Positions 28,498 through 46,139 of a stretch of DNA of 46,139 nucleotides are shown one piece after another. Each line of letters begins with the position of its first letter. Positions within the stretch are counted from its first letter, which is position 1. Source of the DNA: Veillonella magna DSM 19857 (GTDB lineage: Bacteria; Bacillota; Negativicutes; Veillonellales; Veillonellaceae); the NCBI RefSeq assembly GCF_000428745.1, contig NZ_AUAN01000012.1:1-46139 (forward strand), in the 5' to 3' direction. The notes below the pieces were generated by a model. It had not been told where the DNA came from. It searched no databases and was given only the letters and a program-made list of their open reading frames with translations. A program made the position numbers and the translations under genes.

Positions 28498-31050
28498 CTA
28501 TTTCTTATACCCCGTATGTTTGAGTGGAAGGGAACGTCTTTCCTCACCATCAATACGACGATACGCATTTGAAATAGCCGGAGCCATTGGGATACTGCTG
28601 ATTTCACCAATTCCTTTGGCACCGTACGCCATTTGATCCGGCGTTCCCTTTTCAATAAAGCTTACATGAATTTGAGGGCGCTGCTTGGCTCTAAGAAGGC
28701 CAAGGGTGCCGTATTTACTTTTTACTTGTCCCTTATCCATAAGGAAATCTTCCGAAACGCCGTACCCCATGCCCATGAGTGTACCGCCTTCCACCTGACC
28801 TTCGCAGGCCTTCGGATTGATGACGCGACCTACATCGAACGCCACGTCCATTTGGGACACAAAATTCTTTTCATCGATAGTCGCCACACAAGCACCGTAA
28901 CCATATGCCACATGGCTGACCGGATGCGGTTTCGGCGATCCCATCTTGTCGGTAATACCGTGATATTCCTGGTAGAATTCCATACCTTCCAAATCGGCAA
29001 GCGTCTTACCTGCCAACGCTTCTTTAAGATCGGCAGCTGCTTTGCGGGTAGCCTCACCGGTAAAGACGGTCTGTCTTGATGCCGTCGTAGTACCGGAATC
29101 CGGCGTTAAATCCGTATCCGGCGCTTCCATAACTACATCATCTGCCGAAATACCTGCCGTTTCGCATAGAATCTGCGTAGCCACGGTACCGATGCCCTGA
29201 CCGATACAAGCGGCCGACGTACGAATATGTACCTTGCCATCAATAACCACGAGACGCACTCGACCTACGTCCGGTAAACCTACGCCGATACCACTGTTCT
29301 TCATGCATACCGCCAGCCCCGTACGTTCACCGGCATAGTAAGCATCCTTAACGGCTTCAAGGCATTCCACCAGCCCCGTTTCCGGTCCGGCTAACTGCCC
29401 GTTCGGTAACGATTCACCGGGGCGAATCGCATTTTTATAACGGAATTCCCACGGATCCATGCCTACCATCTCTGCGAGCAAGTCGATATTTACCTCTTGC
29501 CCGAAGCAACTTTGTGTTACCCCGAAACCACGGAACGCGCCGCCCGGTACATTGTTGGTATATACACAGGTGCCTTCCACATAAAAGTTATCGTAATGGT
29601 ACGGACCACCGGAGTGCGTGCAGGCACGCTGTAATACCGGGCCACCCAAGGATGCATAGGCACCACAGTCGGATACGATAATTACCTTACTGCCAACGAT
29701 GTTGCCTTCTTCGTCGCAAGCGGTGGTAATATCCATTTCCATGGCATGACGTTTTACGTGAATGTCCAGACTTTCCTGACGAGAGAATTTAACCTTTACC
29801 GGTTTACCCGTTTTCCACGCCATAAGCGCCGCATGGTGCTGTACGCTCATGTCCTCTTTACCGCCGAAGCCGCCGCCGACGAGCATGCTGTGTACATGTA
29901 CGGCCTCTGCCGGAATTTCTAACATCCGTGATACTTCATGCTGTTCATCGTATACACTTTGTCCGCCCGTATATAAATCGAGTTCGCCATTATCGCGTTT
30001 TACGGCAATCGCACATTCCGGTTCCATAAACGCATGATCTGTTTGCGGAGTCGAATAATGACGCGTCACCACATATTTAGCGTTAGCAATAGCTTCCTCC
30101 GCATTGCCGCGAGACAACACTTCATGGGCCAGTACATTCCCTTTCGGATGTAGCTTCGGAGCGCCCTCCGCCAATGCCTGCGCCGGCGAAGTAATCGGTT
30201 CCAATTCCGTATAATCTACATCGACTAACCCGCATACTTCATCAAGCGTTTCTTTATGAGCCGTCGCCACCAAAGCAATGGCATCGCCTACATAGCGCGT
30301 CGTATCGCCTTCTGCAATAAGTACGTCCCAATCCGGAATGATATGACCGGTCTTATTAAAAGGAACATCCTTTGCCACCAATACTTCTACGCAGTCCGGA
30401 TGTGCCTTTGCTTTTGAAATATCGATTTTATTTACGATAGCCCGCGGATATTTAGAGCGTACTGCCTTGGCATAAATCATACCCGGCAATACCATATCAT
30501 CTACATAACGACCGGTGCCCAAGGTTTTTTCCTTCGCATCCACCCGGTGAAGCAGCGTACCGATTTTACCGGACCGATCACTTTGCGGAATGGGTAAATC
30601 TTCGCGGAAAAATTTAGCAGCCATCAAGATGGCATCTTCAATTTTTACATAGCCCGTACAACGGCAAATATTACCGTTAATCGCCAGCTTTACATCATCA
30701 CGCGTAGGATTGAGGTTTTCATCCAACAACGCTTTTGCGCTGATGACCATACCGGGAATGCAGAAACCGCACTGTACAGCACCGCACTCGCCGAACGCGT
30801 ACGCATAGACCTCACGTTCCCGTTCGGTCAAACCTTCTATAGTAACTACGTGCTTACCTTCCAACATGGACAACTTAAACACGCAGGATTTTACTTTTTT
30901 ACCGTCTACGATTACCGTACAAGCACCGCATGCACCGGCACCACAGCCGTCTTTAGTTCCCGTTAAATGCAATTCATCACGCAAGTAATCAAGTAGCTTC
31001 ATGTCTTTTTCGGACTCGCGCCACTCACCATTTACCTGAAAACGAAACAT
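28498..31050 (-). CDS. xdhD: Molybdenum hydroxylase, selenium-dependent xanthine dehydrogenase (XdhD) type
   Basis: An 850-residue fusion of a two [2Fe-2S] domain and the molybdopterin domains, without an FAD domain. Cluster ligands: Cys36, 41, 44 and 56 (DGCGAGACGACTV), then Cys94, 97, 129 and 131 (QCGFCIPGM, ICRCTGY). The molybdopterin part shows GGGFGGKED, PGGAFRGFGV and, near the C-terminus, GAKGIGEISS with the catalytic glutamate. The fused layout and the neighbours (ssnA, ygfK, ygeW) match the selenium-dependent hydroxylases of anaerobic purine degraders, which hydroxylate xanthine or hypoxanthine and often need a labile selenium; that need is inferred. No selenium-handling gene is in the window. 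The ATG at 31050, ten bases after GGGAGG, is preferred. Confidence 0.93.
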   Translation of the reverse strand: MFRFQVNGEWRESEKDMKLLDYLRDELHLTGTKDGCGAGACGACTVIVDGKKVKSCVFKLSMLEGKHVVTIEGLTEREREVYAYAFGECGAVQCGFCIPGMVISAKALLDENLNPTRDDVKLAINGNICRCTGYVKIEDAILMAAKFFREDLPIPQSDRSGKIGTLLHRVDAKEKTLGTGRYVDDMVLPGMIYAKAVRSKYPRAIVNKIDISKAKAHPDCVEVLVAKDVPFNKTGHIIPDWDVLIAEGDTTRYVGDAIALVATAHKETLDEVCGLVDVDYTELEPITSPAQALAEGAPKLHPKGNVLAHEVLSRGNAEEAIANAKYVVTRHYSTPQTDHAFMEPECAIAVKRDNGELDLYTGGQSVYDEQHEVSRMLEIPAEAVHVHSMLVGGGFGGKEDMSVQHHAALMAWKTGKPVKVKFSRQESLDIHVKRHAMEMDITTACDEEGNIVGSKVIIVSDCGAYASLGGPVLQRACTHSGGPYHYDNFYVEGTCVYTNNVPGGAFRGFGVTQSCFGQEVNIDLLAEMVGMDPWEFRYKNAIRPGESLPNGQLAGPETGLVECLEAVKDAYYAGERTGLAVCMKNSGIGVGLPDVGRVRLVVIDGKVHIRTSAACIGQGIGTVATQILCETAGISADDVVMEAPDTDLTPDSGTTTASRQTVFTGEATRKAAADLKEALAGKTLADLEGMEFYQEYHGITDKMGSPKPHPVSHVAYGYGACVATIDEKNFVSQMDVAFDVGRVINPKACEGQVEGGTLMGMGYGVSEDFLMDKGQVKSKYGTLGLLRAKQRPQIHVSFIEKGTPDQMAYGAKGIGEISSIPMAPAISNAYRRIDGEERRSLPLKHTGYKK

Positions 31051-31149
31051 ATACAAGGAACCTCCCTTCATTAGTTATCACTATTACAGGCACTGCGATA
31101 CCAACCAGTACCGCAGACCTGTAATATTTATCTACATTATGCACATAGG

Positions 31150-32838
31150 CTAGAAATAATACGGCATCGTTTCTTCAAACGTTGCAATAATCGGTTGCAG
31201 CTCCGCCGGTACATCCGCTAACGGCGCTACGCCACGCTGCCCTTTAAAGCGGAATCCCCACCGATCTCCCTCTTTATAGAAACCATCATTCGTGCTGGCT
31301 TCCATTCGCGCTTCATCAAGGAAGAGCGTCAAGCGATCCTTATACGGTTGGCACGGCTCGATACAATTACAAGCACAGTTGCCGCATTCGTTACACGATT
31401 CATCAATATGTATAATCAATTTTTTACCATCTACGGTAATCATTTCGTTAGTTCTGTTCGGGCATACGCGAACACAGTTGCCACAAGTAATCTTGCAGGC
31501 ATAGTCCGTGGAATGCGCATCTTGGAAGCCCGGTTTGGCATCACGCTTTTTGCGCATAGCCGCTGTTTTATGTAAGGCTTGGTTGCTCTTGGCTTCCTCT
31601 GCCAATGCTTCAATAGCGGCTACATCAAGTGTTCCCACTGTACCATAGTCTACGGCTTCCACTTCCTTCGCCAAGGCATCCAGCTGATTGTAGCCGGCCC
31701 CCTGAAGAAGCGTCGTACATACGGTTACCGGCCAAATGCCGGCAGCAAAAATGCGTTTAATCGTCTTGCGATCCGCGCCACCGCTGTAAGAAATGGCCAA
31801 TTTACCATCGCAAGCCTTCGCCAACGCAGCCGCAACGGAAATCGTCAACGGGAACAAGGACTTACCGGACATATACATCTGCTCACCCGGCAATTCACCG
31901 TGTCCGATTGTCACCGGGAAGGTATTCGTCAACTTCACGCCAAACTGTTTGCCAATGCCTTCCGCCACTTTCTGAAGACGCTGAATCATCGGCACTGCAT
32001 CATTCATTCCCGGATCGACTTCGAACTGATGCTTATCAAAGGTAACATAATCAAAGCCCGTTGCATCAAGTAGCTCGCGTACCGTGTCATAGCCTAACAG
32101 CGTTGGATTACATTTCAGATATACGTTCAGTTTCTTTTCCGTAATGAGATATTCGCAAATAGATTCAATTTCATTGGCCGGACAACCGTGCATGGTGGAT
32201 AACGTAATGGACTGGCAAATTTCATCGCTAATGCTTTCCACATAAGCTGCATCAACATTGGTGAAGCGATGAAGATTTTGTAACGCCCATTCCTTGCAGC
32301 TCTGCCAGCATTGGGTAGCCCCTGCTTTTTTTAGATTTTCGATAAAACCATCGATCAACGGGTCCTTGATACCGGCTAGGTTATAGCCTACGCTCATATT
32401 AAAGATAAAGCCGTTCGGATCGCCAAAGCCGAATTCCTTGCTGATAAGCTTTACCGCAAACCATGCTTTGATGTATTCGTTCATGGCTTCATCAGCGCGA
32501 TATTCCGATGACCATTCCACATTATATGCTTCATCGTTAGAGTTAATGCACGGACGAGGAATGCCCAGTTCTTCGCCATACATGGTCTGTACGGTTTTTA
32601 ACTCGATAAAACGTGCCCCGCCCACATAGGCTGCTACAATATTCTGCGCCAACTGCGTATGCGGACCGGCTGCCGGTCCCAAGGGATTTTCCATCGTCAC
32701 GCCGAAAGCCGATAAGGTATTGCTTCCTTCATAGCGATGTATTGACTCTACATTAAAAATACGGTTATGCAACGCATATTCCTTAAAAATATGATTCATT
32801 AAGGTATCAAAACATACGGGATACATAATGTCGCTCAT
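31150..32838 (-). CDS. ygfK: YgfK-type oxidoreductase, lacking the central flavin module
   Basis: The first 420 or so residues match the dihydroorotate-dehydrogenase-like N-terminal domain of YgfK (PLGPAAGPHTQLAQNIV, ARFIELKTVQ, LSTMHGCPANEIESI, LPGEQMYMSGKSLFPL, ISYSGGAD). The C-terminal 120 residues match its ferredoxin-like part with two four-cysteine sets (CGNCVRVCPNR and CNECGNCACNC). In E. coli YgfK, about 1,030 residues, a glutamate-synthase-small-chain-like FAD/NAD(P) module of some 430 residues sits between them. Here the two ends join directly, in frame, without stop or frameshift, at 562 residues. It probably passes electrons between the purine or amino-acid intermediate and ferredoxin. 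AAAGGAGAG precedes the ATG. Confidence 0.88.
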   Translation of the reverse strand: MSDIMYPVCFDTLMNHIFKEYALHNRIFNVESIHRYEGSNTLSAFGVTMENPLGPAAGPHTQLAQNIVAAYVGGARFIELKTVQTMYGEELGIPRPCINSNDEAYNVEWSSEYRADEAMNEYIKAWFAVKLISKEFGFGDPNGFIFNMSVGYNLAGIKDPLIDGFIENLKKAGATQCWQSCKEWALQNLHRFTNVDAAYVESISDEICQSITLSTMHGCPANEIESICEYLITEKKLNVYLKCNPTLLGYDTVRELLDATGFDYVTFDKHQFEVDPGMNDAVPMIQRLQKVAEGIGKQFGVKLTNTFPVTIGHGELPGEQMYMSGKSLFPLTISVAAALAKACDGKLAISYSGGADRKTIKRIFAAGIWPVTVCTTLLQGAGYNQLDALAKEVEAVDYGTVGTLDVAAIEALAEEAKSNQALHKTAAMRKKRDAKPGFQDAHSTDYACKITCGNCVRVCPNRTNEMITVDGKKLIIHIDESCNECGNCACNCIEPCQPYKDRLTLFLDEARMEASTNDGFYKEGDRWGFRFKGQRGVAPLADVPAELQPIIATFEETMPYYF

Positions 32839-32884
32839 GAGGACACTCTCCTTTGTCTAATTAGATACCGGATACTTATCCGTC

Positions 32885-34213
32885 TTACGCCAACAGCCGC
32901 TTCCAAAGTCCGTCCGCTACGCGGCGTACTTCTTCCATCAGCTTTTCTTTATCCATACCTACCAACTGACGATCCTGCATACGCACGATACCGTCACTGA
33001 TAGTAGTAATTACATTCATACCGTTGGCGCCGAACAACAAATGTCCGTTTATATTTGTTGCATCTAATCGCGTCGGTGCCGTGTAATCCATTACGATAAC
33101 ATCCGCTGCCGCTCCCGCCTTCAGTATGCCTACCTGGGCATTAAGGAAATCACCAGCAATGTCTCTGTTATTGTCAAAGAGCATCGTTGGAATTTCCGTC
33201 CACCCTTGATTCGGTAGCCCGCTTCTGTGTTTTACCAAGCAATTGGCCACCTTATACGATTCCAGCATATCACTGGTATAGCCGTCCGTACCGAGACCAA
33301 GTCGTACACCGGCTTTGTACAATGCTAGGATGTCCGGTGCCCCTACAGCATTACCCATATTGCTTTCCGGATTATGTACCACCGTCGTCTTTGTCTCTTG
33401 CAAACGTTTAATTTCTTCCGCATCTACGTGAATGCAATGACCGGCAATCGTGCGATCGCCCAAAATCCCCTGACGATACAACCGTTCCACCGTCCGTACA
33501 CCGTACTTGGCCAAGCTGTCATCCACATCGGCCATACCTTCCGCTACATGAATGTGATAGCCTAGCTTATCTATATTTTGTTCCCTTACATACGCCAACG
33601 TATCATCGCTTAACGTAAACGATGCATGTAAACCAAACATGGCACCTAAATGCGCCGGATCCTTAGCCGCTTCCTTGCCAAAGCGTACGTTTTCCGCTAC
33701 CGCTTTTTCCATTTCTTCATGGCCGTTGCGATCGCTTACTTCATAGCAAAGACAGGAACGCACGCCGAATTGACGCGCTACATCGGCAATCACGCTAAGG
33801 GACCCTTCCGTTTCCCCATAACTGGCGTGATGATCAAAAATAGATGTCACGCCGTTTTCAATGCACGCCAGATAGGTAGCCACCGCACTGGCCCACACGT
33901 CCTCTTTCTTTAAATGGCGATCGAGGAAAAACCATAAGCCTTCTAATATTTCATTAAAATTGGTTGGATTATTACCGGGAATGCTAAGTCCGCGCGCAAG
34001 AGCCGAATAAATATGATGATGCGCGTTAATAAATCCGGGCATAATCAATTTACCGTGCGCGTTTACAACGGTCGCATCCGCATACTTACTTTTCAATGTA
34101 TCATACGCACCGACTTCCACAATGGCTCCCTTATCCATTACCACTGCCCCGCGGGTGATGATAGGATTGGCAGGATCCCGTGTAATTACTGTGCCTTCAC
34201 CAAGCAAAATCAT
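32885..34213 (-). CDS. ssnA: SsnA-type amidohydrolase
   Basis: This 442-residue metal-dependent hydrolase of the amidohydrolase superfamily shows the metal site in FINAHHHIYSALARG (about 62), the second His region YHIHVAEG, AGHCIHVD, and the aspartate in LGTDGYTSDM. The superfamily deaminates or opens purine and pyrimidine rings. SsnA is a regular member of the anaerobic purine cluster, where it is thought to open the xanthine or urate-derived ring; the precise step is from the literature on the cluster, not from this sequence. AAGGAG sits directly upstream. The gap to arcC is 23 bases. Confidence 0.92.
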   Translation of the reverse strand: MILLGEGTVITRDPANPIITRGAVVMDKGAIVEVGAYDTLKSKYADATVVNAHGKLIMPGFINAHHHIYSALARGLSIPGNNPTNFNEILEGLWFFLDRHLKKEDVWASAVATYLACIENGVTSIFDHHASYGETEGSLSVIADVARQFGVRSCLCYEVSDRNGHEEMEKAVAENVRFGKEAAKDPAHLGAMFGLHASFTLSDDTLAYVREQNIDKLGYHIHVAEGMADVDDSLAKYGVRTVERLYRQGILGDRTIAGHCIHVDAEEIKRLQETKTTVVHNPESNMGNAVGAPDILALYKAGVRLGLGTDGYTSDMLESYKVANCLVKHRSGLPNQGWTEIPTMLFDNNRDIAGDFLNAQVGILKAGAAADVIVMDYTAPTRLDATNINGHLLFGANGMNVITTISDGIVRMQDRQLVGMDKEKLMEEVRRVADGLWKRLLA

Positions 34214-34236
34214 AGGTAACTCCTTCCTGTAACGGC

Positions 34237-35172
34237 TTATAAGTGAATTCGAGTCCCCGTTTTACCTTCAATACCTTCACGGGCTTTTTCGAGAAGTGTA
34301 ATAATAGCCGTACGACCTTTTTTACTTTCCGCAAATTTAATCGCTGCATCCACCTTAGGAAGCATGGAGCCCGCAGCAAACTGACCTTCTGCCGCATATT
34401 GACGAGCTTCTTCTACAGTAATATCATCCAGCCACTGCTGATCCGGTTTACCAAAGTTTACAGCCACCTTTTCTACTGCCGTCAAAATAATGAATACATC
34501 CGCATCAATTTCGGCAGCCAACAAGCTACTGGTCCAATCCTTGTCGATAACGGCCGAAGCACCGGATAAATGATTACCGTTGTGTACAACCGGAATACCG
34601 CCACCGCCGCAGCAAATCACCAATTGTTTGCCAACGAGCTGTTTAATGGCTTCCAATTCCACAATTTCTACCGGTGCCGGCGAAGCTACGACACGGCGCC
34701 AGCCGCGACCGGAATCTTCTACGCATTTGTAGTCGTAATGTTCTTCTGCATACTTAGCTTCTTCTTCCGTCATGAAATGACCGATCGGTTTTGTAGGATG
34801 CTGAAACGCTGGATCTTCTTCATCCACGCGTACCTGCGTTACCATAGTCGACACTGCCAAATCCTTGATATTTCGATTGAGCAGCTCTTCGCGAATCGCA
34901 TTTTGCAAATCATACCCGATGTATGCTTGGCTCATGGCCACACATACGGATAACGGCGTATTCGGCTGCTTCGGATTTTCCCTAGACAATGCTGCCATAG
35001 CGTTATTAATCATGCCTACCTGCGGACCGTTACCATGCGTAACTACCACATCATAGCCGGCTTCCACTAAATCGACGATAACCTTAGATGTTCCCTTTAC
35101 GGCAATCATCTGTTCCGGCAATGTATTTCCCAAAGCATTACCGCCTAAGGCGATAACAGCGCGTTTTTTCAT
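34237..35172 (-). CDS. arcC: Carbamate kinase (YqeA/ArcC type)
   Basis: This 311-residue amino-acid kinase fold enzyme opens with KKRAVIALGGNAL and contains VVTHGNGPQVGMI, VICCGGGGIPVV and AVIDKDWTSSLLAAEI (Lys, Asp in the active site), ending with GMLPK-like AAGSMLPKVDAAIKF. It converts carbamoyl phosphate and ADP to ATP, CO2 and ammonia. In this operon the carbamoyl phosphate would come from the YgeW reaction, so it is the energy-yielding step. The gene follows ygeW after a hairpin at 35235-35262. Confidence 0.96.
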   Translation of the reverse strand: MKKRAVIALGGNALGNTLPEQMIAVKGTSKVIVDLVEAGYDVVVTHGNGPQVGMINNAMAALSRENPKQPNTPLSVCVAMSQAYIGYDLQNAIREELLNRNIKDLAVSTMVTQVRVDEEDPAFQHPTKPIGHFMTEEEAKYAEEHYDYKCVEDSGRGWRRVVASPAPVEIVELEAIKQLVGKQLVICCGGGGIPVVHNGNHLSGASAVIDKDWTSSLLAAEIDADVFIILTAVEKVAVNFGKPDQQWLDDITVEEARQYAAEGQFAAGSMLPKVDAAIKFAESKKGRTAIITLLEKAREGIEGKTGTRIHL

Positions 35173-35234
35173 AATTCCACCTCAATTAATACCTGTGCTT
35201 CTATATCTATAAGCTTCATTTTTTGTAAACATAA

Positions 35235-35262
35235 AGAGCTACCTGGGAACCCCAAGTAGCTC
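35235..35262 (-). other. Intercistronic hairpin between ygeW and arcC
   Basis: GAGCTAC-TGGG pairs with CCCA-GTAGCTC in the 99-base gap, on either strand. It has few T after it, so it may be a weak terminator or an RNA stability element. Confidence 0.5.
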
Positions 35263-35271
35263 TCGTCTCTC

Positions 35272-36465
35272 TTAGCGGAGAACCCGTTTAGTTCCCTTTT
35301 CTTCTAATTCTTTTAAGAGACCTACCGGATCCTGGAATTTGCTCAAGAAAATCATAGCTGCAATAACATACGGTTTGTAGCTTGCTTCTTTGTAAAGCGG
35401 TACGCGATAACGATCGAATACAGTAGCATCTACTTCACCTTCGTCGCAGCTTACCCCCGTAATATCTGCCGGCAAGCAGTGTAAGTATAATGCTTTGCCA
35501 TCTTTCGTTAATTTCATCATATCTTCAGTGCAAGCCCAATCTTTGTGCTGTGCATTCTGTTCCAATAATTCTTTTTCCAGCTTTTTAATGCCTTCCATGT
35601 CGCCTTCACCGTACAAGTTGGTACGTTTTTCCATAGCTGCAAACGGTGCCCAGCTCTTCGGATATACGATGTCTGCATCTTTGAAAGCATCTTCCATGCT
35701 ATTGGTACGACGGAAGGAACCGCCGGATGCCTGTGCATTTTTCTTAGCTACTTCTTCTACTTCCGGCATTACTTCATAGCCTTCCGGATGCGCCAATACA
35801 ACTTCCATACCAAGGCGAGTGAAGAGACCGATTACACCTTGCGGTACGGAAAGCGGTTTACCGTACGACGGGGAGTATGCCCAAGTCATAGCAATTTTTT
35901 TGCCTTTAAGGTTTTCAAGGCCGCCGAATTCGTTGATGATATGTGCTGCATCGGCCATGCACTGTGTAGGATGATCGATATCGCACTGGAGGTTAACAAG
36001 GTTCGGACGCTGTTCCAATACGCCGTCTTCGTTACCTTCCTTAACTGCATCAGCTACAGCATGCATGTAGGCATTCCCTTTACCGATATACATGTCATCG
36101 CGGATACCGATAACATCAGCCATGAAGGAAATCATATTAGCCGTTTCACGTACGGTTTCACCGTGAGCGATCTGCGATTTACCTTCGTCGAGATCCTGTA
36201 CTTCAAGACCTAACAAGTTACAAGCGGAAGCAAAGGAGAAACGAGTACGGGTAGAGTTATCGCGGAACAAGGAGATACCGAGACCGCTGTCGAACACTTT
36301 CGTCGAAATGTTGCGTTCGCGAAGAGCGCGAAGAGCATCGGCTACAGCCCAAACAGCTTTTAATTCATCTTCGGATTTTTCCCAAGTCAAGAAGAAATCA
36401 TCACCGAACATGCCTTTGAAATCCAATTTTTCTAAGTCTTTAATTGCTTTGTTGAAATCAGTCAT
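35272..36465 (-). CDS. ygeW: YgeW, knotted carbamoyltransferase
   Basis: This 397-residue protein is a transcarbamylase. The carbamoyl-phosphate motif is FRDNSTRTRFSF (STRTR), the DHPTQCMAD segment is the usual HPTQ site, and LYLHCLPADI with DATVFDRYR forms the second-domain site. It is longer than ornithine or aspartate transcarbamylases, as is known for the YgeW group, which has an extra knotted segment. The substrate was long unresolved; its place between ygeY, dpaL and a carbamate kinase suggests phosphorolysis of a carbamoylated diaminopropionate-like intermediate (inference). AAGAGG precedes the ATG. Confidence 0.94.
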   Translation of the reverse strand: MTDFNKAIKDLEKLDFKGMFGDDFFLTWEKSEDELKAVWAVADALRALRERNISTKVFDSGLGISLFRDNSTRTRFSFASACNLLGLEVQDLDEGKSQIAHGETVRETANMISFMADVIGIRDDMYIGKGNAYMHAVADAVKEGNEDGVLEQRPNLVNLQCDIDHPTQCMADAAHIINEFGGLENLKGKKIAMTWAYSPSYGKPLSVPQGVIGLFTRLGMEVVLAHPEGYEVMPEVEEVAKKNAQASGGSFRRTNSMEDAFKDADIVYPKSWAPFAAMEKRTNLYGEGDMEGIKKLEKELLEQNAQHKDWACTEDMMKLTKDGKALYLHCLPADITGVSCDEGEVDATVFDRYRVPLYKEASYKPYVIAAMIFLSKFQDPVGLLKELEEKGTKRVLR

Positions 36466-36509
36466 TGTTGTATCCTCTTTTCAATTTATAGTTATTATAT
36501 TTGTTGCAC

Positions 36510-36546
36510 CATACCACTCCGGCGACGCGAGGTCGCCGTCGGTATG
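36510..36546 (-). other. Strong intercistronic hairpin between ygeY and ygeW
   Basis: CATACC pairs with GGTATG outside and CGGCGAC with GTCGCCG inside, in the 91 bases between the two genes. There is no T-run, so it is probably an mRNA-stability or processing element. Confidence 0.55.
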
Positions 36547-36556
36547 TATAGGATTT

Positions 36557-37867
36557 TTATTTGCAGTACATGCCCGGTAAGGTTGCGTATACAGCGGCGC
36601 AATGTACAAGGTCTTCTTTCCAAGTTTTTTCGTTAGGCGCATGTGCCTGTGCTTCCGCACCCGGTCCAAAGCCGATACAAGGAATGCCGTTACGGCCCAT
36701 GATGGATACACCGTTTGTAGAGAAGGTCCATTTATCGGTAAGCGGACGAGCTTTACGCATTTCGATAGTCGTGGAGTCACCGATGCGTTCTTCACCGTAC
36801 AATGCTTTATACGCTTCTTCCAAAGCTACCGTTACTTTGTGATCCTTCGGAATAACCCAAGTCGGGAAGTAGCATTCGATAGGATATACAAGACCGGTGT
36901 AGGACGGACGATCATACTGGTACATGGATACTTTTACATCGTCGCCATATTTTTTAACAGCCGGCAATGCACGAATTTCATCGAGGCAGCTTTCCCAAGT
37001 TTCACCGGCCGTCATGCGGCGGTCAAGAGATACTGCACAGGAGTCGGCTACAGCGCAACGGCTCGGAGAGGTAAAGAAAATTTCGGAAGTCGTTACCGTA
37101 CCGCGACCCAAGAAGCGAGCTTCTTCCCACTGATCGTTGTATTTCGGGTCGAGCATTTTTACGAGACCTTTAATTTCCGTACCTTCTTCGGCATCATTTT
37201 CGTTAAGATCGCGAATGTTTTGAAGAATATCGGCCATTTTGTAAATCGCATTGTCGCCGCGTTCCGGAGCCGAACCATGGCAGGATACGCCTTTAACGTC
37301 AATGCGGATTTCCATACGACCGCGCTGACCGCGATAGATACCGCCGTCCGTCGGTTCCGTGGATACTACGAATTCAGGACGAACACCGTCTTCCTTGATA
37401 ATATATTCCCAGCAAAGACCGTCGCAGTCTTCTTCCTGTACCGTACCGGTAACGAGCACTTTATATTTATCATTTAAAAGACCTAAGTCTTTCATAATCT
37501 TAGCACCGTACACAGCGGATACGATACCGCCCATCTGGTCGGATACGCCACGACCACCGATTTCGGTTTCTGTTTCATAGCCTTCATACGGATCGAATTC
37601 CCAGTTATCGCGGTTACCGATACCTACTGTATCGATGTGAGCATCATAACCGATCAATGTTTTACCGGTACCCATGTAACCGAGTACATTCCCCTGTTTA
37701 TCGATGACAACTTCATCAAAGCCAACGGCACGCATTTCTTCGGCGATGCGGTCGATATGACCTTTTTCATCGCAGCTTTCGCCCGGAATGCGAACCAAGT
37801 CACGTAAAAACTTAGTCATAGCGCCTTCATATCCCTGTGCCGCTTTTTTAATTGCTTCAAAATCCAT
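36557..37867 (-). CDS. ygeY: YgeY, M20-family metallohydrolase
   Basis: This 436-residue M20 peptidase-fold protein shows the metal-binding segments [18 protein letters not shown] (His and Asp ligands), [14 protein letters not shown] and VQEEDCDG (Glu base), with a dimerisation domain near 180-300. Enzymes of the family remove acyl or carbamoyl groups from amino acids, such as in hydrolysis of ureido compounds. YgeY is a steady member of the purine cluster and probably acts on a ring-opened ureido intermediate; this is inference. AGGAGG lies 8 bases before the ATG. Confidence 0.93.
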
Positions 37868-38014
37868 TGTAAAATTCCTCCTCTGTGTCCAACCTACTTT
37901 ACATGCGTTCTATGTATTAGAAGTGTATATCAAATCATGTGTTACTCATTCGTGTTACTTAGTTGAGGCTACCGTTACTATCCATAACGTAACGGTAATT
38001 GTGTCGCTATTGTC

Positions 38015-39223
38015 TTAGAAGTTTTTACCTTCCCATACGATTTCTTTGTAGCGAATCGGATCCGTATCCCCTTCGGTGGAGAAGCAAAGCACCTTAGAAT
38101 CTTTGCCAAGACCTAATTCATCACGCAGCTCTTTATACGCATCCATCGTCATAATCGCCGCTACCGTACCGAACGGAACCGCACCGGATTCACCGGATAC
38201 GATAGGTTTATCGCCTTTAAGCGGTGCTGCCGTCATGCGCATACCCAATTCCGCTACCCAATCAGGAGCAGATACGAATACATCCACATGGTTACGCAGG
38301 ATATCCCAAGAAATCGTGTTCGGTTCACCGCAAGCAAGCCCGGCCTGAATCGTCTGAAGGTCACCGCCTACGATACGCGGTTTACCATCGCCGGCCAAAG
38401 CGCCTTGATACAAGCAATCGGCTGCCTGTGCTTCCACAACGATAATCTTCGGTTTTACCGGTGCATCCTTATAAAGATTAGTGAAATATCCGGTAACCGC
38501 ACCGGCTAAGGAACCAACCCCGGCCTGAACAAAGATGTGTGTCGGCATAACGCCCTTTTCGTTAAGCTGATCGCCGGCTTCCAATGCCATCGTACCGTAG
38601 CCCTGCATAATCCAACTCGGAATTTCTTCATAGCCGTCCCAAGCCGTATCTTGAACCACTACGCCGTTATCAACTTTAGCGGCTTCCGCTACTGCCTTGC
38701 GTACGCAATCGTCATAATTTAACTCTTCGATAGTAACCGTAGCGCCTTCTTTTTCAATATTCTTTAAGCGCGTCTCGGTGGTGCCCTTCGGCATAAAGAT
38801 AACTGCCTTTTGACCTAACCGTTTAGCTGCCCACGCTACACCGCGACCATGGTTGCCGTCAGTGGCAGTAAAGAAGGTCGCCTGTCCGAATTCCTTGCGG
38901 AGCTCTTCGGAAGTGAATACATCATATGTTAATTCCGATACGTCCTTACCCAATTTCTGAGCTACATACTTAACCATAGAGTAGGAGCCGCCCAATACCT
39001 TAAAAGCGTTCAAACCAAAACGATACGACTCATCCTTTACAAACAAGGTACCGAGACCAAGATGATCCGCCATCAGCGGCAGCTCCGTCAACGGAGTTAC
39101 CTCATACTGCGGGAAGCTTTGATGAAAGGCTCTCGCTTTTTCCCCTTCTTCGATGGACATAATCGCCAGATTTTTATCCTCCGACTTCGTCATCGTATTA
39201 ACTACCCATTTCATTGCATCCAT
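38015..39223 (-). CDS. dpaL: Diaminopropionate ammonia-lyase (DpaL/YgeX)
   Basis: This 402-residue fold-type II pyridoxal-phosphate enzyme splits 2,3-diaminopropionate into pyruvate and two ammonia. The Schiff-base lysine is in RFGLNAFKVLGGSYSM, the cofactor-binding loop is DGNHGRGVAWAAK, and AGVGSLAGAVTGYF is the phosphate loop. The closing VSGESGAVPFG and STEGDTDPIRYKEI match YgeX. As the pyruvate-forming step it links purine breakdown to fermentation. GGAGGAG precedes the ATG, only 17 bases after the regulator stop, so the two are cotranscribed. Confidence 0.96.
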   Translation of the reverse strand: MDAMKWVVNTMTKSEDKNLAIMSIEEGEKARAFHQSFPQYEVTPLTELPLMADHLGLGTLFVKDESYRFGLNAFKVLGGSYSMVKYVAQKLGKDVSELTYDVFTSEELRKEFGQATFFTATDGNHGRGVAWAAKRLGQKAVIFMPKGTTETRLKNIEKEGATVTIEELNYDDCVRKAVAEAAKVDNGVVVQDTAWDGYEEIPSWIMQGYGTMALEAGDQLNEKGVMPTHIFVQAGVGSLAGAVTGYFTNLYKDAPVKPKIIVVEAQAADCLYQGALAGDGKPRIVGGDLQTIQAGLACGEPNTISWDILRNHVDVFVSAPDWVAELGMRMTAAPLKGDKPIVSGESGAVPFGTVAAIMTMDAYKELRDELGLGKDSKVLCFSTEGDTDPIRYKEIVWEGKNF

Positions 39224-39240
39224 TCCGTTGTACTCCTCCT

Positions 39241-39906
39241 TTATAATGCGGCGTCTTTTTCCTTTACCGAATTAAGATCGCTGTATAACGTGAATTTTGA
39301 AATACCAAAGTAATCAGTAATTTTATCGGCTGCCTTAGATATTAAGAACGCTCCGGCATCATTGAGATATTTAATCGCCTGACACCGTTGGGCTTTCGTC
39401 ATTTCACCGGCTGGTACACCCACCAAGGCTACCGCTTGCGCAATTAAATCATCCAGTAAGTCCGCTACGCTGGTGGTAATTCGTTCCGCATCCGGTTTTT
39501 CCGCGGGACCTTCCGTAAGACCCGTGCTACCGGTAATACCGGCTACCGCTTTTTGCAGATTCAACAAATCCGTAATATCCGAGTTGATACAGAATACATA
39601 ATGAATGTTGCCGTCTTCATCTCTGATATAAATGGTGCTGGACCGAAACACGCGACCGTCCTTGGTTCTTGTTAAATATCCATACCGATCAGCCAACTCT
39701 TTGTCGCCACTTTTAATGGCTTCCAGTACTGCATGGGAAGGTCCATCACCTACGCGACGATTGGATATCTCGCCGTTTTCTATGCAAACAATGGTGCCTT
39801 CCATGCCTTTTGTTCTCGCATCATGGATAACCACTTCACACGAGCTACCAAATTGCATCGCAAGCCCATGAGCGATTTGCTCCAGTTGCTTTAAACCATA
39901 TTGCAT
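39241..39906 (-). CDS. YheO-type PAS/HTH transcriptional regulator
   Basis: This 221-residue protein has an N-terminal PAS_6 (YheO-like) sensor domain (about 1-115, GSSCEVVIHDAR, NRRVGDGPSHAVLEAI, GRVFRSSTIYIRDEDGNIHYVFCINSDIT). A linker and a C-terminal helix-turn-helix follow (about 170-215, KAQRCQAIKYLNDAGAFLISKAADKITDYFGISKFTLYSDL). As the first gene of the operon it likely controls it, responding to a purine or breakdown product (inference). Strongly similar 17-base sites lie upstream, two of them within the predicted leader. The ATG at 39906 follows GGAGGG. Confidence 0.9.
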   Translation of the reverse strand: MQYGLKQLEQIAHGLAMQFGSSCEVVIHDARTKGMEGTIVCIENGEISNRRVGDGPSHAVLEAIKSGDKELADRYGYLTRTKDGRVFRSSTIYIRDEDGNIHYVFCINSDITDLLNLQKAVAGITGSTGLTEGPAEKPDAERITTSVADLLDDLIAQAVALVGVPAGEMTKAQRCQAIKYLNDAGAFLISKAADKITDYFGISKFTLYSDLNSVKEKDAAL

Positions 39907-40465: not shown

Positions 40466-43400
40466 CTATTTACCCTTTTCGATAGCAGCTAAACGTTCTC
40501 TCAACTCAGCTACCATAGCACGTAACTCTTTCACTTCATCTTCAAATTCAGAAGTAGCTTTCGGCACCTCTCCACTACCGATGCGCCATGTTACACCTAA
40601 GTTGGCCATAACATGAGAGTTACCTGCATAAGCAATACCACCGTTAAGCATAGTACGACCATTTACATAATGTGCCGCACCAACAGCAACTGCTTGTTCA
40701 CCTCGATATGTACCTACACCGGCCATAATCTGTGTCGGTTCTGCCGGATTATAGGCTACCGGTTTAAGAGCAGCAAGAGCCGCATTCATCGCATCGCCTT
40801 TACGGCTTTCTTTCCGAAGATCACGAATAGCTTGTGTATTATTGCCAACCTGCTGTTCTACCTGATCGATGCGTTTCGTATTAGTATCTACTTTCTTTTC
40901 TACCGCGTATAACTGACCACCGTTTACTGCATCCGTAGAATTCTCAGTTTTATCTCCATTCTCTACATTGGTTAACTTTACAGGAACACTACTATCACGA
41001 TTTACATCAGTCAATACCTGTACAGCTGCTACATCCTCAGGATTTACCGGCGTCGCAGACTCTTTTACGGAACCGTCCTTATTTAAATCAGACACTTTGT
41101 AAATCGTATCACCTATTTTAGTAACGAGATAACCTTCCTTATTATCCTCGGTTACACCGGCTTTAAAGATAGCACTACCGGCTACATTTTTAACTACAGT
41201 CGTCTCTTTAGTAACATTTTCTGTACCGGTCTGTCCTTTATCTCCGGTCTCACCTTTAGCTCCCTGATCACCGGTCTGTCCTTTGTCTCCGGTTTCACCT
41301 TTGGCGCCTTGTTCACCCCGAGGACCTTGTTCTCCCTGTGGGCCTTGTTCACCGCGTGGGCCCTGTTCGCCCTGTAAGCCTTGTTCACCGCGTGGGCCTT
41401 GCTCACCGGTTGCACCTTTGTCGCCCTGTGGACCCTTGTCACCGGTTTCACCCTTAGCACCTTGCTCACCGCGTGGACCTTGGTCGCCGGTCTCTCCTTT
41501 AGCTCCCTGGTCTCCGGTTACACCTTTATCTCCGGTTTCACCTTTAGCACCTTGCTCACCGCGCGGACCTTGGTCACCGGTTGCACCTTTATCACCCTGT
41601 GGACCTTTATCTCCGGTTTCACCTTTGTCACCTTGTGGGCCTTTGTCTCCGGTTTCACCTTTAAGGCCACGGAAGCTTTCATCATTATTAATCGTTTCTT
41701 TATCAAGCCCTACGAAGATAACGTTCTTATTGCCATCTTTTACAGCTTTCGCCAGTAAGCCATCGCCAAAATCAAAGGCAAGATCGTTTACTGTAAAGGA
41801 CCCTTCATTAGGCGTCACTGCGCTCCCCTTAGTGTAACCGCTGTCTGCTACTTTGCCGCCACTGGAGATGCGAACCGGTGTATTCATTACAGCATACAAC
41901 TGGCTACCATTAATAGCATCTGTGCTATGTACACCGATAAAGCCCGGGGCCACATTCTGAATACGACGTGTAGCTGTGCCGGAACCCACGCTGACTACAC
42001 CAACAACTTGATCGCCACCGGCAAATGTATAATTGTGTTCACCATTGCCCATAGAAGTGTAATCATTAGCCGTGCCTTTCGTACGGTCTACATCATCGGC
42101 AACATACGCACTGCCGGAGCCTAAAAATACAGAGTTAGCTGCCGTAGTAGTAATGCCATTCCCCAATGCAACTACCTGAGCATTCGTAATAGTATTTTCA
42201 CTACCAATCGCAATAGAGTTTTCCGCATCGTCAGCTATCCCACTTTCACGCCCCAACACAATAGTATCATCCGAGGTAGATTTTGCTTTGGTACCCACCA
42301 CGATAGCATTATTTACTTCTTTCTGTTCCGTCTTGCTGCTGGCATCCTGCTGACCTACACCGGCCTCGCTTCCTAAGAACACATTGCCTTGACCTTTAGC
42401 CAAACGACCGGCCTTATCACCGATAGCAATATTGCCGACTGCCGTCAACATACTACCGCCATCAAGAGCTTGTAATGAACCGGTGTTTTTTAAATTATCC
42501 ATCATGACACCGGCACCGTTACCGATAGCTACCATGTTGGAAGATAACGTATTGAGTCCGGCCTGTTCACCGACAGCTACATTGCTGTAGCCCATATTCG
42601 CCACTAACGCTCTGTGACCGACAGCTACGTTGTTGCCGCCGCTATTGCTTTGTCCGGCCTGGTATCCGTAGAAAGCATTTCGATTACCGGTACTGTTCAT
42701 ACCGCTTTCAACGCCGGTCATTGTATTTAAAGCACCGGTCACTTCTTTACCGGCCTGTTCACCAATGTACACATTACGAGTGTCGTTATCATTGCCATGA
42801 CTATTTACACCGGCACCGGAACCAATAAATACCGACTTGGCATTCTTATCAGAGCCTACACCGGTTTCTCTACCGATCGCAATCATTTCATTGCCTACAG
42901 TAGTAGCGTTCGCACCGATGGCTACCGCATAATTCACTTCTTTCTGACGAGTCTTGATAGGCGTTGCGCTTTGATTGCCTACACCGGCACCGTCACCGAT
43001 GAAGGTATTGCCTTCGCCTTTCACCAAACGACCTGCCTTATAACCAACGGCCACGTTGCCGATAGCATTGGCCTGCGCACTACCATCAAGTGCCGTATAG
43101 GTATAACCGGGGTCACTCGTTCCTTCTCTTATTAAGTTTTCCATCATATAACCGGCATCGCTACCTATACCCACACTGCGTGCCGCACGGGACTTGTACA
43201 TCGACATATGACCTACTGCGGTATTGGCTTCGCCTTTACCCTCGTTAAAGGCATGTGAACCTAACGCTGCATTATAGCTTCCCACAACAGCTTCACCGGC
43301 ATACATACCGAGCAAGGTATTGCTGCTACCATTTCCTAATCGACCGGCTCTGTAACCCCCCACAACATTATGGCTGCCGACCAGACGATCGCCGCTTTCT

Positions 43401-44404
43401 GCACCTAAGGCTATGTTATAATCGCCAACCATGCCAGGACCGGCACTCGCACCCAATGATGTATTAAACTCACCTTGTACGGCCGTTCCGGCATGATCAC
43501 CAACGGCTACTTGATTAGAACCTTGTGTTGCACGTCCTGCATAAGGACCTACGGCAATATTATTATCCCCATGAGTACTCATGCCACTGGACTCACCAAG
43601 AAAAATATTATTGCTTCCTTGGACCGGTGTAATATCAGCTGCTACATCCTCTTCTTTATCATCCCATCTTGTACCGGCCCGTTTACCGATCATAATATTA
43701 CCGCTGCCTTGTGCTTGGTACCCTGCTTCGGAGCCGACAAAGAAATTGTCATCGCCTACCGTCTCCATACCGCTTTGATTGCCTAGGTTGATATTTCTTG
43801 TACCATGCTGCTCATAACCGGTATTTCCACCGATATGTATGTTCTTAGCACCTTGCTGCGTATAACCGGCTTGCTCACCAATAGCGATCATCATGTCTGC
43901 GTCAGCTGCACTGCCACCTGCCGTAGGACCAATCGCTATCGTACTACTACCGGACATATTATCACCGGCATTGGCACCAATCGCCACCACTGCCTCACCG
44001 GATGTACTCTTACCGGCATGGTGTCCAATATAAATAGCATTTGTTGCTGTACTCGCCTGATTTTCTTCATTATCTGTAGATATACCACCGGTATTGGCAC
44101 CGATAGCAATGGTGCCATACGTAGTTGCAGCCGCGCCATTACCGATAGCAATAGCATCCGTAGTTGTCGCCGTCGCATCTACATTGTCACTGCCGGTCAT
44201 GTACATAGCGATGCGGTTATTAACATCAGCTACTTTGTGCTCCTGTTCAACTGCACTTACCGTAGAGGTTACGCCTAGTGCAGCCGTAAAGGCCGTCCCT
44301 ACTACCAACGCTGATAATACGCTTTTCGTTAACAATTCTTTCTTTTCGGATGACCCATTCCGAAAAGCTGTCGTAAGAGTTAACTTATTTTTACCCTTTC
44401 TCAT
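40466..44404 (-). CDS. Trimeric autotransporter adhesin with collagen-like stalk
   Basis: A 1,312-residue surface protein. An N-terminal signal ([27 protein letters not shown]) is followed by some 750 residues of YadA-type head repeats with IAIG, VAVG and NIMIG units and repeated G-Q-A-G motifs. A neck follows ([11 protein letters not shown]), then about 50 uninterrupted Gly-X-Y triplets (41224-41674), a second neck ([14 protein letters not shown]), a coiled coil and the YadA anchor barrel ([39 protein letters not shown]). An unusual 35-residue helical tail ([21 protein letters not shown]) follows the barrel. Such proteins trimerise and mediate attachment; collagen-like stalks may bind host proteins. 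The second ATG, seven bases after AGGAG, is taken as start. Promoter TTTACA-N18-TATAAT at 44510-44539. Confidence 0.95.
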
Positions 44405-44509
44405 CGTCATCTCCTAACATGTCCCCAAAACAAAAAAAATACAAAGCACAACCCACTACACTATAGCCAATTTAAAGTATACATAAACCATAGTATATTT
44501 CCGTTTCAT

Positions 44510-44539
44510 ATTATAACTACACTCATTGGTTTTTGTAAA
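44510..44539 (-). promoter_or_regulatory. Promoter of the collagen-like adhesin
   Basis: TTTACA (44534-44539), 18 bases and TATAAT (44510-44515) on the minus strand, about 100 bases before the ATG. The layout equals that of the two small RNA promoters further upstream. Confidence 0.6.
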
Positions 44540-44634
44540 GATATTTCTAGGTATTTCTAGGTATTTTTTTGATTTCCATAGATAATTAAATATTTTACTT
44601 ATTTATAACGTTATTCAGCGTAATATAGCGAAAA

Positions 44635-44675
44635 AGAACAGCGGAAATACTTGTGATTACCGCCGTTCTCTTCTT
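44635..44675 (-). terminator. Terminator-like hairpin upstream of the adhesin
   Basis: On the minus strand GAACGGCGG pairs with CCGCTGTTC (one G-U) and TTTTTC follows. It ends some transcript between the small RNA and the adhesin promoter. No convincing gene is seen before it, though a short frame reaches into the hairpin. Confidence 0.5.
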
Positions 44676-44810
44676 CTACTACTTGTGCCAACTGCACTCT
44701 ATATAAATCTCTTCTTTTTTCCGTATAACTCCTCACATACACAAATACCGAGGAAATACATTAACAAGATACATATAGCATCCATGTCCATATACTATAT
44801 GATACTTAAA

Positions 44811-44982
44811 TAAAAAAGAGCACCTATGCAGTGGGGACAAGAGTGTTGGATATAGCATAGGTACTCTCTCTGTACGGTAATTACTTAAGCCTATATATTT
44901 AGGTTGTTGGGAAAAATATATAGAACTATAGCATGTCACGAGGTTGTGAAGATGACACAATACAGTGCTTCAAATAACTACC
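44811..44982 (-). ncRNA. Structured small RNA, copy A
   Basis: About 172 nucleotides are predicted from a start near 44982. The promoter is TTTACA (45013-45018), 18 bases, TATAAT (44989-44994). The 5' end GGUAGUUAUUU pairs with AAGUAAUUACC (11 pairs). Inside lie a hairpin closed by UGUCA/UGACA with loop CUUCACAACCUC, and a hairpin with stem CUAUAUAUUU/AAAUAUAUAG and loop UUCCCAACAACCU. A terminator follows (GAGUACCUAUGC with GCAUAGGUGCUC, then six U). No frame with a ribosome site is apparent. Copy B repeats every stem with different bases. The C-rich loops could pair with ribosome sites of target mRNAs. I do not recognise the family. Confidence 0.72.
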
Positions 44983-45134
44983 ACAATCATTATACTAAAG
45001 AATACATATACATGTAAAGTATTTTTTATAAATTATATTTATTATTTGTTATAACGTTTATACAATTCATGTACTATTATTTACCTATCTATCAACTTCC
45101 TTATTTTAATCATATATCTTTTCATACAAATCAT

Positions 45135-45320
45135 AAAGAAACACAGCGGAAGACACCTATGTCAAGGGGTCATTGAATCTGACATAGGTGCCTTCCGCTG
45201 TGTGTAGTAATTATTCTATTCTATATATAATTAGAGTGTCGTATCATGTGTGGGAATTATATATAGGGTTATGTCATCGTATTGTGAAAATGACATAGCG
45301 AGGAGATAAAATAATTACCT
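45135..45320 (-). ncRNA. Structured small RNA, copy B
   Basis: About 186 nucleotides from a start near 45320. The promoter is TTTACA (45351-45356), 18 bases, TATAAT (45327-45332), with CTTTAG between the boxes as in copy A. The 5' GGUAAUUAUU pairs with GAAUAAUUACU. The inner hairpins are UAUGUCAU/AUGACAUA (loop UUUCACAAUACG) and CUAUAUAUAAUU/AAUUAUAUAUAG (12 pairs, loop CCCACACAUGAUACGACACUCU). The terminator is a 23-pair stem (45142-45164 and 45180-45202, one G-U), then UUUCUUU. The sequence differs from copy A at many paired positions while stems are kept, which points to selection for structure. Confidence 0.72.
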
Positions 45321-45558
45321 GGTAGTATTATACTAAAGAGTATGTTATTCTGTAAATATATTTTATAAAATTATAATAAATTTTTGTAAAAATAAAATAG
45401 TCTCCGTAAGTCATGACGTATAGCATTCATATATAGGACTTTTATAAATCAATACTGAGAGTACGCACTAGCACCGAGAGTAGAATAATGAACAGTTCAA
45501 AAGTTACATAGGATAACAACACTTCCTCCTCGTACTTTTAATAGTAAGGAGGGATTAT

Positions 45559-45990
45559 ATGATTACCAAACGACTTTCTTCTAATGTGGATAGCATTACG
45601 TCTGATAGAATAGACACCGTGTCTAAGAGAAGAAATATATCCGCAGATGAAGCCACCAACACCGATACTTATTTTTCTTACGCGTTACCTACTGGATCGT
45701 TATTAGTCCATGAAGATATAATAGACTACGAAATGGAATTACTGGTGCGACATAATGATGGTATTCGTGAAGGAATTGCCATTGGACGTAAGGAAGGATT
45801 AGCTGCTGGACGCAAAGAGAGACTGAGTCAAGGGCTAAAGCAAGGACAAGCTGCCGGCAGTCAATTGCGCGCGCAAAAAATGGCCATATCCATGTTGGAG
45901 GACAAAGCCTCCATAGCTTTAATTAGCAAATACACCGGCTTATCAGAACAAGAAATCCGTTCCCTCGCAAAAGAACATCATTTACTATAA
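45559..45990 (+). CDS. Small protein resembling the C-terminal tail of Rpn/PD-(D/E)XK transposase-like proteins
   Basis: This 143-residue protein has a strong ribosome site (AAGGAGG, eight bases before ATG). The second half contains the run of GREGIAIGRKEGLAAGRKE-type Gly/Arg/Glu repeats and ends AISMLEDKASIALISKYTGLSEQEIRSL, which is typical of the C-terminal tail of Rpn (YhgA-like) nuclease proteins. The N-terminal 65 residues lack the nuclease motifs. It could be the remains of a truncated gene, but the frame is clean and the start well formed. In some bacteria the short tail acts as an antitoxin of the full-length nuclease; this is a possibility, not a finding. Confidence 0.65.
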   Translation: MITKRLSSNVDSITSDRIDTVSKRRNISADEATNTDTYFSYALPTGSLLVHEDIIDYEMELLVRHNDGIREGIAIGRKEGLAAGRKERLSQGLKQGQAAGSQLRAQKMAISMLEDKASIALISKYTGLSEQEIRSLAKEHHLL

Positions 45991-46062: not shown

Positions 46063-46139
46063 AAAAAGTATCCTACGATAGCTCTTTGAAGCCCGGTCTT
46101 ACGAAGGGCATTCTGCATAGCTATCGTAGGATACTTTTT
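46063..46139. terminator. Strong terminator at the window end
   Basis: Two perfect 21-base arms (46063-46083 and 46119-46139) with A-run and T-run, and an inner GCCC/GGGC stem, form a 77-base hairpin. It can end the 45559 gene on the plus strand or a minus-strand transcript from outside the window. Confidence 0.75.

Follow-up and report, generated by a model that had tools for sequence, protein, structure and literature searches.

The window analysed here is a stretch of 46,139 nucleotides from Veillonella magna DSM 19857, in which a gap of 1148 bases separates a gene for a YadA-type trimeric autotransporter adhesin with collagen-like repeats (1314 aa; 40466-44410, minus strand, start near 44404/44410) from an open reading frame of 143 aa on the opposite strand (45559-45990). 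Two units lie in this gap, copy A at 44811-44982 (~172 nt) and copy B at 45136-45319 (~184 nt), both on the minus strand and with predicted ends placed from promoter and hairpin positions; A, B and the adhesin gene run in the same direction within this one 1.1-kb gap. The original prediction had described two minus-strand units of like layout upstream of the adhesin gene, and both were found at that place, with folds that agree independently.

Each of the two units is preceded by a sigma-70-type promoter, TTTACA-N18-TATAAT (11/12 match), at 45356-45327 for B, where CTCTTTAG directly precedes the -10 box, and at 45018-44989 for A, where TTCTTTAG holds that position. The promoter scan placed the same hexamers at the same spacing ahead of the adhesin gene (44539-44510), all three promoters being on the minus strand. 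Counting the adhesin's own, the gap has three promoter sites matching at 11/12 positions or better, compared with a mean of 0.15 in dinucleotide-shuffled sequences, of which 1 in 300 had at least three; at the looser threshold of 9/12 the region shows no excess of promoters (9 found versus 10.2 expected). A CTTTwGTATAAT block is common to A, B and a third copy (C, below) ahead of their closing stems and is not present in the adhesin promoter. In addition, copy A is separated from the adhesin promoter by a terminator-like hairpin of presumed role (44627-44677, minus strand), which came to light through a match to a miRNA model that is otherwise meaningless. The promoter layout that A and B were predicted to share with the adhesin gene is hence shared in hexamers and spacing, but not in the CTTTwGTATAAT block, and the hairpin intervenes.

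Separate minimum-energy folds of A and B led to the same layout of promoter, closing stem (P1), two hairpins inside P1 and then a long 3′ hairpin. In copy B, the 5′ strand of P1 (45306-45319) pairs with 45206-45219 around hairpin 1 (45270-45297, loop region UUUUCACAAUACGA) and hairpin 2 (45221-45266, 12 AU-rich pairs, loop starting CCCACACAUG), and the 3′ hairpin (45141-45203) has 25 pairs, the loop region AUUCAAUGACCCC and a weak U tail. In copy A, P1 (44970-44982 with 44876-44888) surrounds hairpin 1 (44932-44959, loop CUUCACAACCUC) and hairpin 2 (44891-44923, 10 AU-rich pairs, loop UUCCCAACAACCU), while the 3′ hairpin and putative terminator (44813-44871) have 17 pairs, a U6 tail and a loop, AUCCAACACUCUUGUCCCC, that resembles the one of copy C; all of these elements are on the minus strand. 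The fold of A has an extra outer helix beneath hairpin 1 that is not found in B. As P1 starts 6-7 bases past the -10 box, it begins near the predicted 5′ end of the RNA. Both units are far more stable than their shuffled counterparts (z of -10.0 for B and -8.0 for A, with 0/200 shuffles as low for either), and the same is true of the cores without the 3′ hairpin (z of -6.0 and -5.5, respectively; 0/500 shuffles as low). The AU-rich stem was expected to have 10 pairs in A and 12 in B, as the folds bear out; for the 3′ hairpin the expected 12 and 23 pairs were wrong, the folds giving 17 and 25. Rho-independent terminators had been proposed for both units, which is convincing for A with its U6 tail but not for B, where no good U tract follows the hairpin (GUGUUUCUUUAU); a terminator pattern scan of the region reported no terminator. 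The 3′ hairpin is present in A, B and C, with a good U tail in A only.

The third copy was found with a covariance model of the A/B core (R1), from which the promoter and the 3′ hairpin had been left out. Run over 28 genomes of the family, R1 gave one clear match besides A and B (E 3.5e-4), located in the same genome (G000:C2; L021:1430-1564, minus strand, ends uncertain). Read along the minus strand, copy C has the promoter TTGCAC-N17-TATAAT, followed by P1 with a single inner hairpin and by a 3′ hairpin. The loop of the latter, AUCCAACAC...UCCCCAC, closely resembles the one in copy A and is the best-kept unpaired stretch between A and C. Since neither the shared promoter block nor the 3′ loop is part of R1, they confirm C independently. 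Copy C sits between a tRNA-Thr(CGT) gene and a convergent radical-SAM gene, which is present in all six congeners examined; the loci after this gene in the six congeners contain no unit, scoring at most 17 bits with a full-length model (R3) versus 107.5 for C. The core of C is less striking than those of A and B (z -3.8; 1/500 shuffles as low). Inner hairpin 2 is absent from C and its U tail is weak, which together with the weaker core fold indicates that the family is modular and its ends uncertain. What had been predicted as a family of two copies is correct as to A and B, but has to be extended by a third member that is one inner hairpin short. On the computed units, structures and paralogy, A, B and C are real: three paralogous small-RNA genes, each with its own promoter.

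Paired changes between the copies support these structures. Between A and B, 15 of the 44 aligned pairs are changed without any loss of pairing, and 5 of these carry changes on both sides. Not in this list are four hairpin-2 pairs, of which two are gapped in A and two are unchanged; a gap in hairpin 1 was corrected by hand for it, and its structure is taken from the same sequences. Random substitution on the same sides kept a mean of 5.5 pairs, the maximum in 100,000 trials being 13, which upholds the original prediction that the stems are kept by compensatory change. The uncorrected MAFFT alignment of all three copies points the same way: 97.4% of its cells pair, it has 6 pairs with double changes versus 2.9 in shuffles (reached by 5/500), and its covariation score was reached by 2/500 shuffles, while in its number of pair types it does not stand out (87/500). 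Sliding the partner strand by 1-3 columns lowers pairing from 97% to 32-49%.

The family is apparently undescribed, judged by Rfam 15 and by literature on Veillonella small or noncoding RNA, and the original prediction of an apparently new structured small RNA (sRNA) family stands. None of 4227 Rfam families matched the window at the gathering score. A cmscan of 44400-45560 at E <=10 gave 8 matches, mostly miRNA hairpins and none near its cut-off (the best, a miRNA hairpin, had 25 bits and E 0.0034 against a cut-off of 110); LhrC, RsaE and 6S were not among the 8, LhrC being represented by an Rfam model. Around copy C, Rfam reported the neighbouring tRNA only. Among the matches listed in the literature search, no title concerned trans-acting sRNAs of this group. 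Motifs ahead of metabolic genes (ilvD, potE, gltD, ldh2) have been reported from Veillonella and other Negativicutes (PMC8632094), and the part of that source available does not present any of them as a free-standing sRNA near adhesins.

Homologues were sought in a genome set with one genome per species. In a DNA search with A and B over seven genomes of the genus, only self matches were returned at E <0.1. With R3, copies A, B and C were found among 61 genomes of the order, the best other match having E 0.0101, and at E <=0.01 this genome was the only one with a match among 380 genomes of the class; both searches used stricter filters with few candidates scored per genome, by which strongly diverged relatives could be missed. 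A spread over the Negativicutes is not supported, with 1/380 class genomes positive under these strict filters. Over 433 kb, R3 returned 11 matches, namely A, B, C (178.6 bits for B and 169.1 for A, both of which are in the R3 seed) and eight others: two that overlap B and C on the opposite strand, one next to C on the strand opposite to it, and five weak ones (E 0.079-0.95).

Weaker candidates were read individually. Three weak R1 matches from the 28 family genomes (L018, L019 and L022; E 0.095-0.28) were rejected on reading, L022 lying within a gene. A model of the 3′ hairpin (R2) gave 35 matches outside this genome at E <=1 in the same 28 genomes, 24 of which were read and none accepted: their best closing helices have 6-10 pairs, where the same rule gives 11-16 for A, B and C, none shows the loop motif AUYCAA...CCCC by eye, and most look like ordinary terminators. 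Four weak R3 matches beyond A, B and C in the 61 order genomes (E 0.0101-0.084) were all rejected on reading. Over 39 loci taken from weak matches, R3 gave 25 matches, the best with 27.7 bits versus 107.5-178.6 for the three copies; E-values in this set, from 0.0006, are low because the set is small and preselected. A strict pattern of the 3′ hairpin had no match in a collection of 84,980 species genomes that may omit this genome's records. The relaxed pattern gave four, in unrelated metagenome-assembled Proteobacteria and Nitrospirae, a number close to a rough chance estimate, and no R3 match was obtained for them at E <=0.1.

The predicted RNAs have an unusual composition where they are unpaired. 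In the folds of A, B and C, C makes up 37-42% of the unpaired bases and G 1.5-6%; unpaired C in shuffles is 27-30%, and the observed level was reached by 0, 0.4% and 2% of 500 shuffles for A, B and C, respectively. Unpaired G is below the shuffles for A only (P 0.016; 0.65 for B and 0.26 for C). By comparison, the unpaired bases in four 6S RNAs of relatives are 19-22% C and 10-14% G. The C-rich loops originally described for copy A are supported, and an excess of unpaired C over shuffles is seen in all three copies. The open reading frames within A, B and C all lack a Shine-Dalgarno match; a promoter of their own and the absence of an open reading frame with a ribosome-binding site are the features expected of trans-acting sRNAs. 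The genome has no match to the Hfq model TIGR02383, though 6S RNA is present, and since no Hfq was found these RNAs would act without it or with another partner.

Based on these features, we propose that the closing stem and the 3′ hairpin would provide a stable scaffold exposing C-rich, G-poor unpaired segments in hairpin loops and junction strands. These segments would most likely pair with mRNAs at G-rich regions around the translation start and keep ribosomes from binding, and the first candidate target is the mRNA of the neighbouring adhesin. Its putative leader (44405-44503, minus strand, from a predicted transcript start) carries UUUUGGGGACAUGUUAGGAGAUGACG ahead of the second ATG (44404), which is the probable start codon. 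A candidate seed in the 3′-hairpin loop of A, UGUCCCCA (44832-44839, minus strand), is an exact complement of leader positions 44420-44427 with weak statistics, UGGGGACA of the leader being the exact 8-base complement of this loop, and the leader's AGAUGAC and AGGAGAU are 7-base complements of A and B. The 3′ loop of A and its hairpin 1 (GUCAUCUUC, with one G-U pair) are complementary to neighbouring stretches of the leader and ribosome-binding site, and the junction strand AUCUCCU of B is complementary to the adhesin's Shine-Dalgarno sequence.

Target prediction covered 294 translation starts in the window and 18 further stretches (~406 kb of 2.2 Mb). A screen with whole RNAs scored 3, 8 and 14 of the 294 starts, without the adhesin among them, and was replaced by a screen of 12 separate segments. 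Without and with accessibility, the adhesin ranked 4th and 5th of 294 for hairpin 1 of A, 8th and 2nd for the 3′ loop of A, 5th and 1st for the junction of C, and 15th and 7th for the 3′ loop of C; for the remaining eight segments, all four of B included, it ranked 16th to 266th. Summed over the 12 segments, the adhesin ranks 7th and 8th, and 1 of 60 dinucleotide-shuffled decoy sets placed it as high without accessibility, while taking the best segment per RNA gives ranks of 11 and 7, as good as in 5 of 60 decoy sets. Compared with their own shuffles, six segments have P of 0.024-0.14 and the other six 0.32-0.80, and some other starts outscore the adhesin. For the linked control of the adhesin that had been thought plausible, the rank of 7-11 among 294 starts speaks in favour, but the P values of single segments are weak and the second statistic is equalled by 5 of 60 decoy sets; the adjacent adhesin gene is a suggestive candidate target of A, B and C.

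The N-terminal 150 residues of the adhesin are found in this genome only among seven of the genus, and relatives of the whole adhesin occur in 40 of the 61 order genomes, counting this one. The leader 10-mer UUGGGGACAU, also written TTGGGGACAT, has two occurrences in the window and 21 further stretches, one being its place in the leader and the other lying at L111:1357-1366, behind another adhesin gene; by estimate this is not above chance. Other adhesin genes carry poly-G tracts, with nine G just within the coding start at L111:1738-1746 (G000:C17) and eight G upstream of a second such gene, apparently in a promoter spacer, at L113:5292-5299 (G000:C26). These tracts look like phase variation. 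A run of nine C on the plus strand at 789-797 of the window may belong to a further phase-variable gene, on the minus strand.

Antisense action of A, B and C is likelier than its rivals, yet the reading as a whole, in which three paralogous sRNAs would be transcribed and their C-rich segments would pair with mRNA starts, repressing among others the adhesin, has in our estimate about even chances. An unlikely but still appreciable alternative is that these are real RNAs which bind a protein or another RNA, as a sponge or decoy, through the loop AUCCAACAC...UCCCC and not through mRNA starts. It would fit the conservation of the 3′-hairpin loop as the best-kept unpaired stretch between A and C, and also the lack of a general pairing excess of the loops at translation starts over composition-matched decoys (z of -1.2 to 1.8 at 150 of the 294 starts, with 20 decoys per segment). 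Against it, the C-rich make-up of the unpaired bases is typical of antisense sRNAs such as LhrC, as far as the available part of PMC4132741 describes them, and GGA, the motif of CsrA-type binding, occurs by eye only in stems of B and C and in no loops.

We consider it improbable that the copies are a small non-coding mobile element of the MITE kind, carrying promoter-like and terminator-like sequence without a regulatory function. Three diverged copies that were not found in six other genomes of the genus would suit such an element, as would the position of copy C behind a tRNA gene, tRNA genes being common insertion places. However, the inverted repeat P1 is internal, with homology running into the promoter on one side and into the 3′ hairpin on the other, so that it takes in promoter blocks outside P1; the stems are kept by paired changes, and no target duplication or transposase was noticed by eye around the copies. 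Nor did collections of phage, plasmid or viral sequences yield a convincing match: blastn matches to phages (the best 20 of 35) and plasmids (4) were short in all those listed, covering at most 10% of the query at E >=0.05, and viral contigs, in a collection that may omit this genome's records, gave no match with either the strict or the relaxed 3′-hairpin pattern.

Very little weight can be given to a cis-acting leader or attenuator of the adhesin gene within one long transcript. The co-directional order of B, A and the adhesin gene in a single gap would permit it, but each unit has its own promoter, a U-tailed hairpin ends A, another hairpin precedes the adhesin's own promoter, and the gene downstream of copy C is convergent. 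A divergent 6S RNA (RF00013) or another known Rfam family, suggested by the similar length of A and B (~172-184 nt) and the long closing stem, is already contradicted and hardly conceivable, because no Rfam model matches at the gathering score and the genome has one canonical 6S RNA elsewhere (G000:C4:75670-75842, the sole RF00013 match reported in it). 6S RNA is present in all 28 family genomes, and A and B differ from it by their three-way junction and by unpaired bases with more C and less G than in the four 6S RNAs of relatives, in line with the original view that the units are not 6S-like.

For the antisense reading, the nearest working analogue is LhrC1-5 of Listeria monocytogenes, a multicopy sRNA with C-rich motifs in a loop, a single strand and the terminator loop, which binds the adhesin mRNA lapB and hinders its translation (available part of PMC4132741). 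As in LhrC to the extent described there, the family here has several genomic copies (three) and C-rich unpaired bases, and an adhesin is the candidate target. Unlike the LhrC copies, which that text gives as near-identical, of 111-114 nt and with two stem-loops, the copies here are ~130-184 nt long and strongly diverged, and their closing stem encloses one or two inner hairpins; LhrC also binds Hfq, and no Hfq was found here. The same part of PMC4132741 describes UCCC motifs that bind mRNA in RsaE and other sRNAs of low-GC Firmicutes, a motif also present in the family here, which differs from them in its three-way-junction core and in the lack of an Rfam gathering-score match.

A further comparison is with an sRNA of Helicobacter pylori, RepG, which acts on a G-rich mRNA leader (available part of PMC8295292). 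As with RepG, UCCCC in the 3′ loop here faces GGGG in the adhesin leader, a likeness of motifs in sequences that were not compared; RepG, as presented in that excerpt, targets a variable G-repeat, unlike A, B and C. By these comparisons, A, B and C apparently form a new RNA family whose members would be regulators of a known kind. RepG is said to be single-copy and of another layout, and it reportedly acts via its terminator loop. A more far-reaching version of the antisense reading, which we hold to be rather doubtful, is that a recent lineage-restricted sRNA family with a three-way-junction core and no recognisable Hfq exposes several C-rich loops simultaneously, which would let a single RNA pair with two neighbouring sites of the G-rich adhesin leader and would tune an adhesin repertoire whose other members have poly-G tracts, an LhrC- or RepG-like solution that would have evolved independently in a diderm Firmicute. 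A three-copy sRNA family with stems maintained by paired changes, present in one species but not in six congeners, would make a good example of a regulatory RNA family of young age, and the neighbouring adhesin offers a directly testable target. Autotransporters drive biofilm formation and autoaggregation in Veillonella parvula, according to the available part of PMC7549365.

Elsewhere in the window, a 21-bp inverted repeat without mismatches, flanked by A/T tails (46063-46139), ends exactly at the contig end; it could be a terminator, or else a repeat at which the assembly broke. A selenium-linked purine degradation cluster occupies 28498-39906, with genes for a Se-dependent xanthine dehydrogenase, carbamate kinase, YgeW, YgeY, diaminopropionate ammonia-lyase and a YheO-like PAS/HTH protein.
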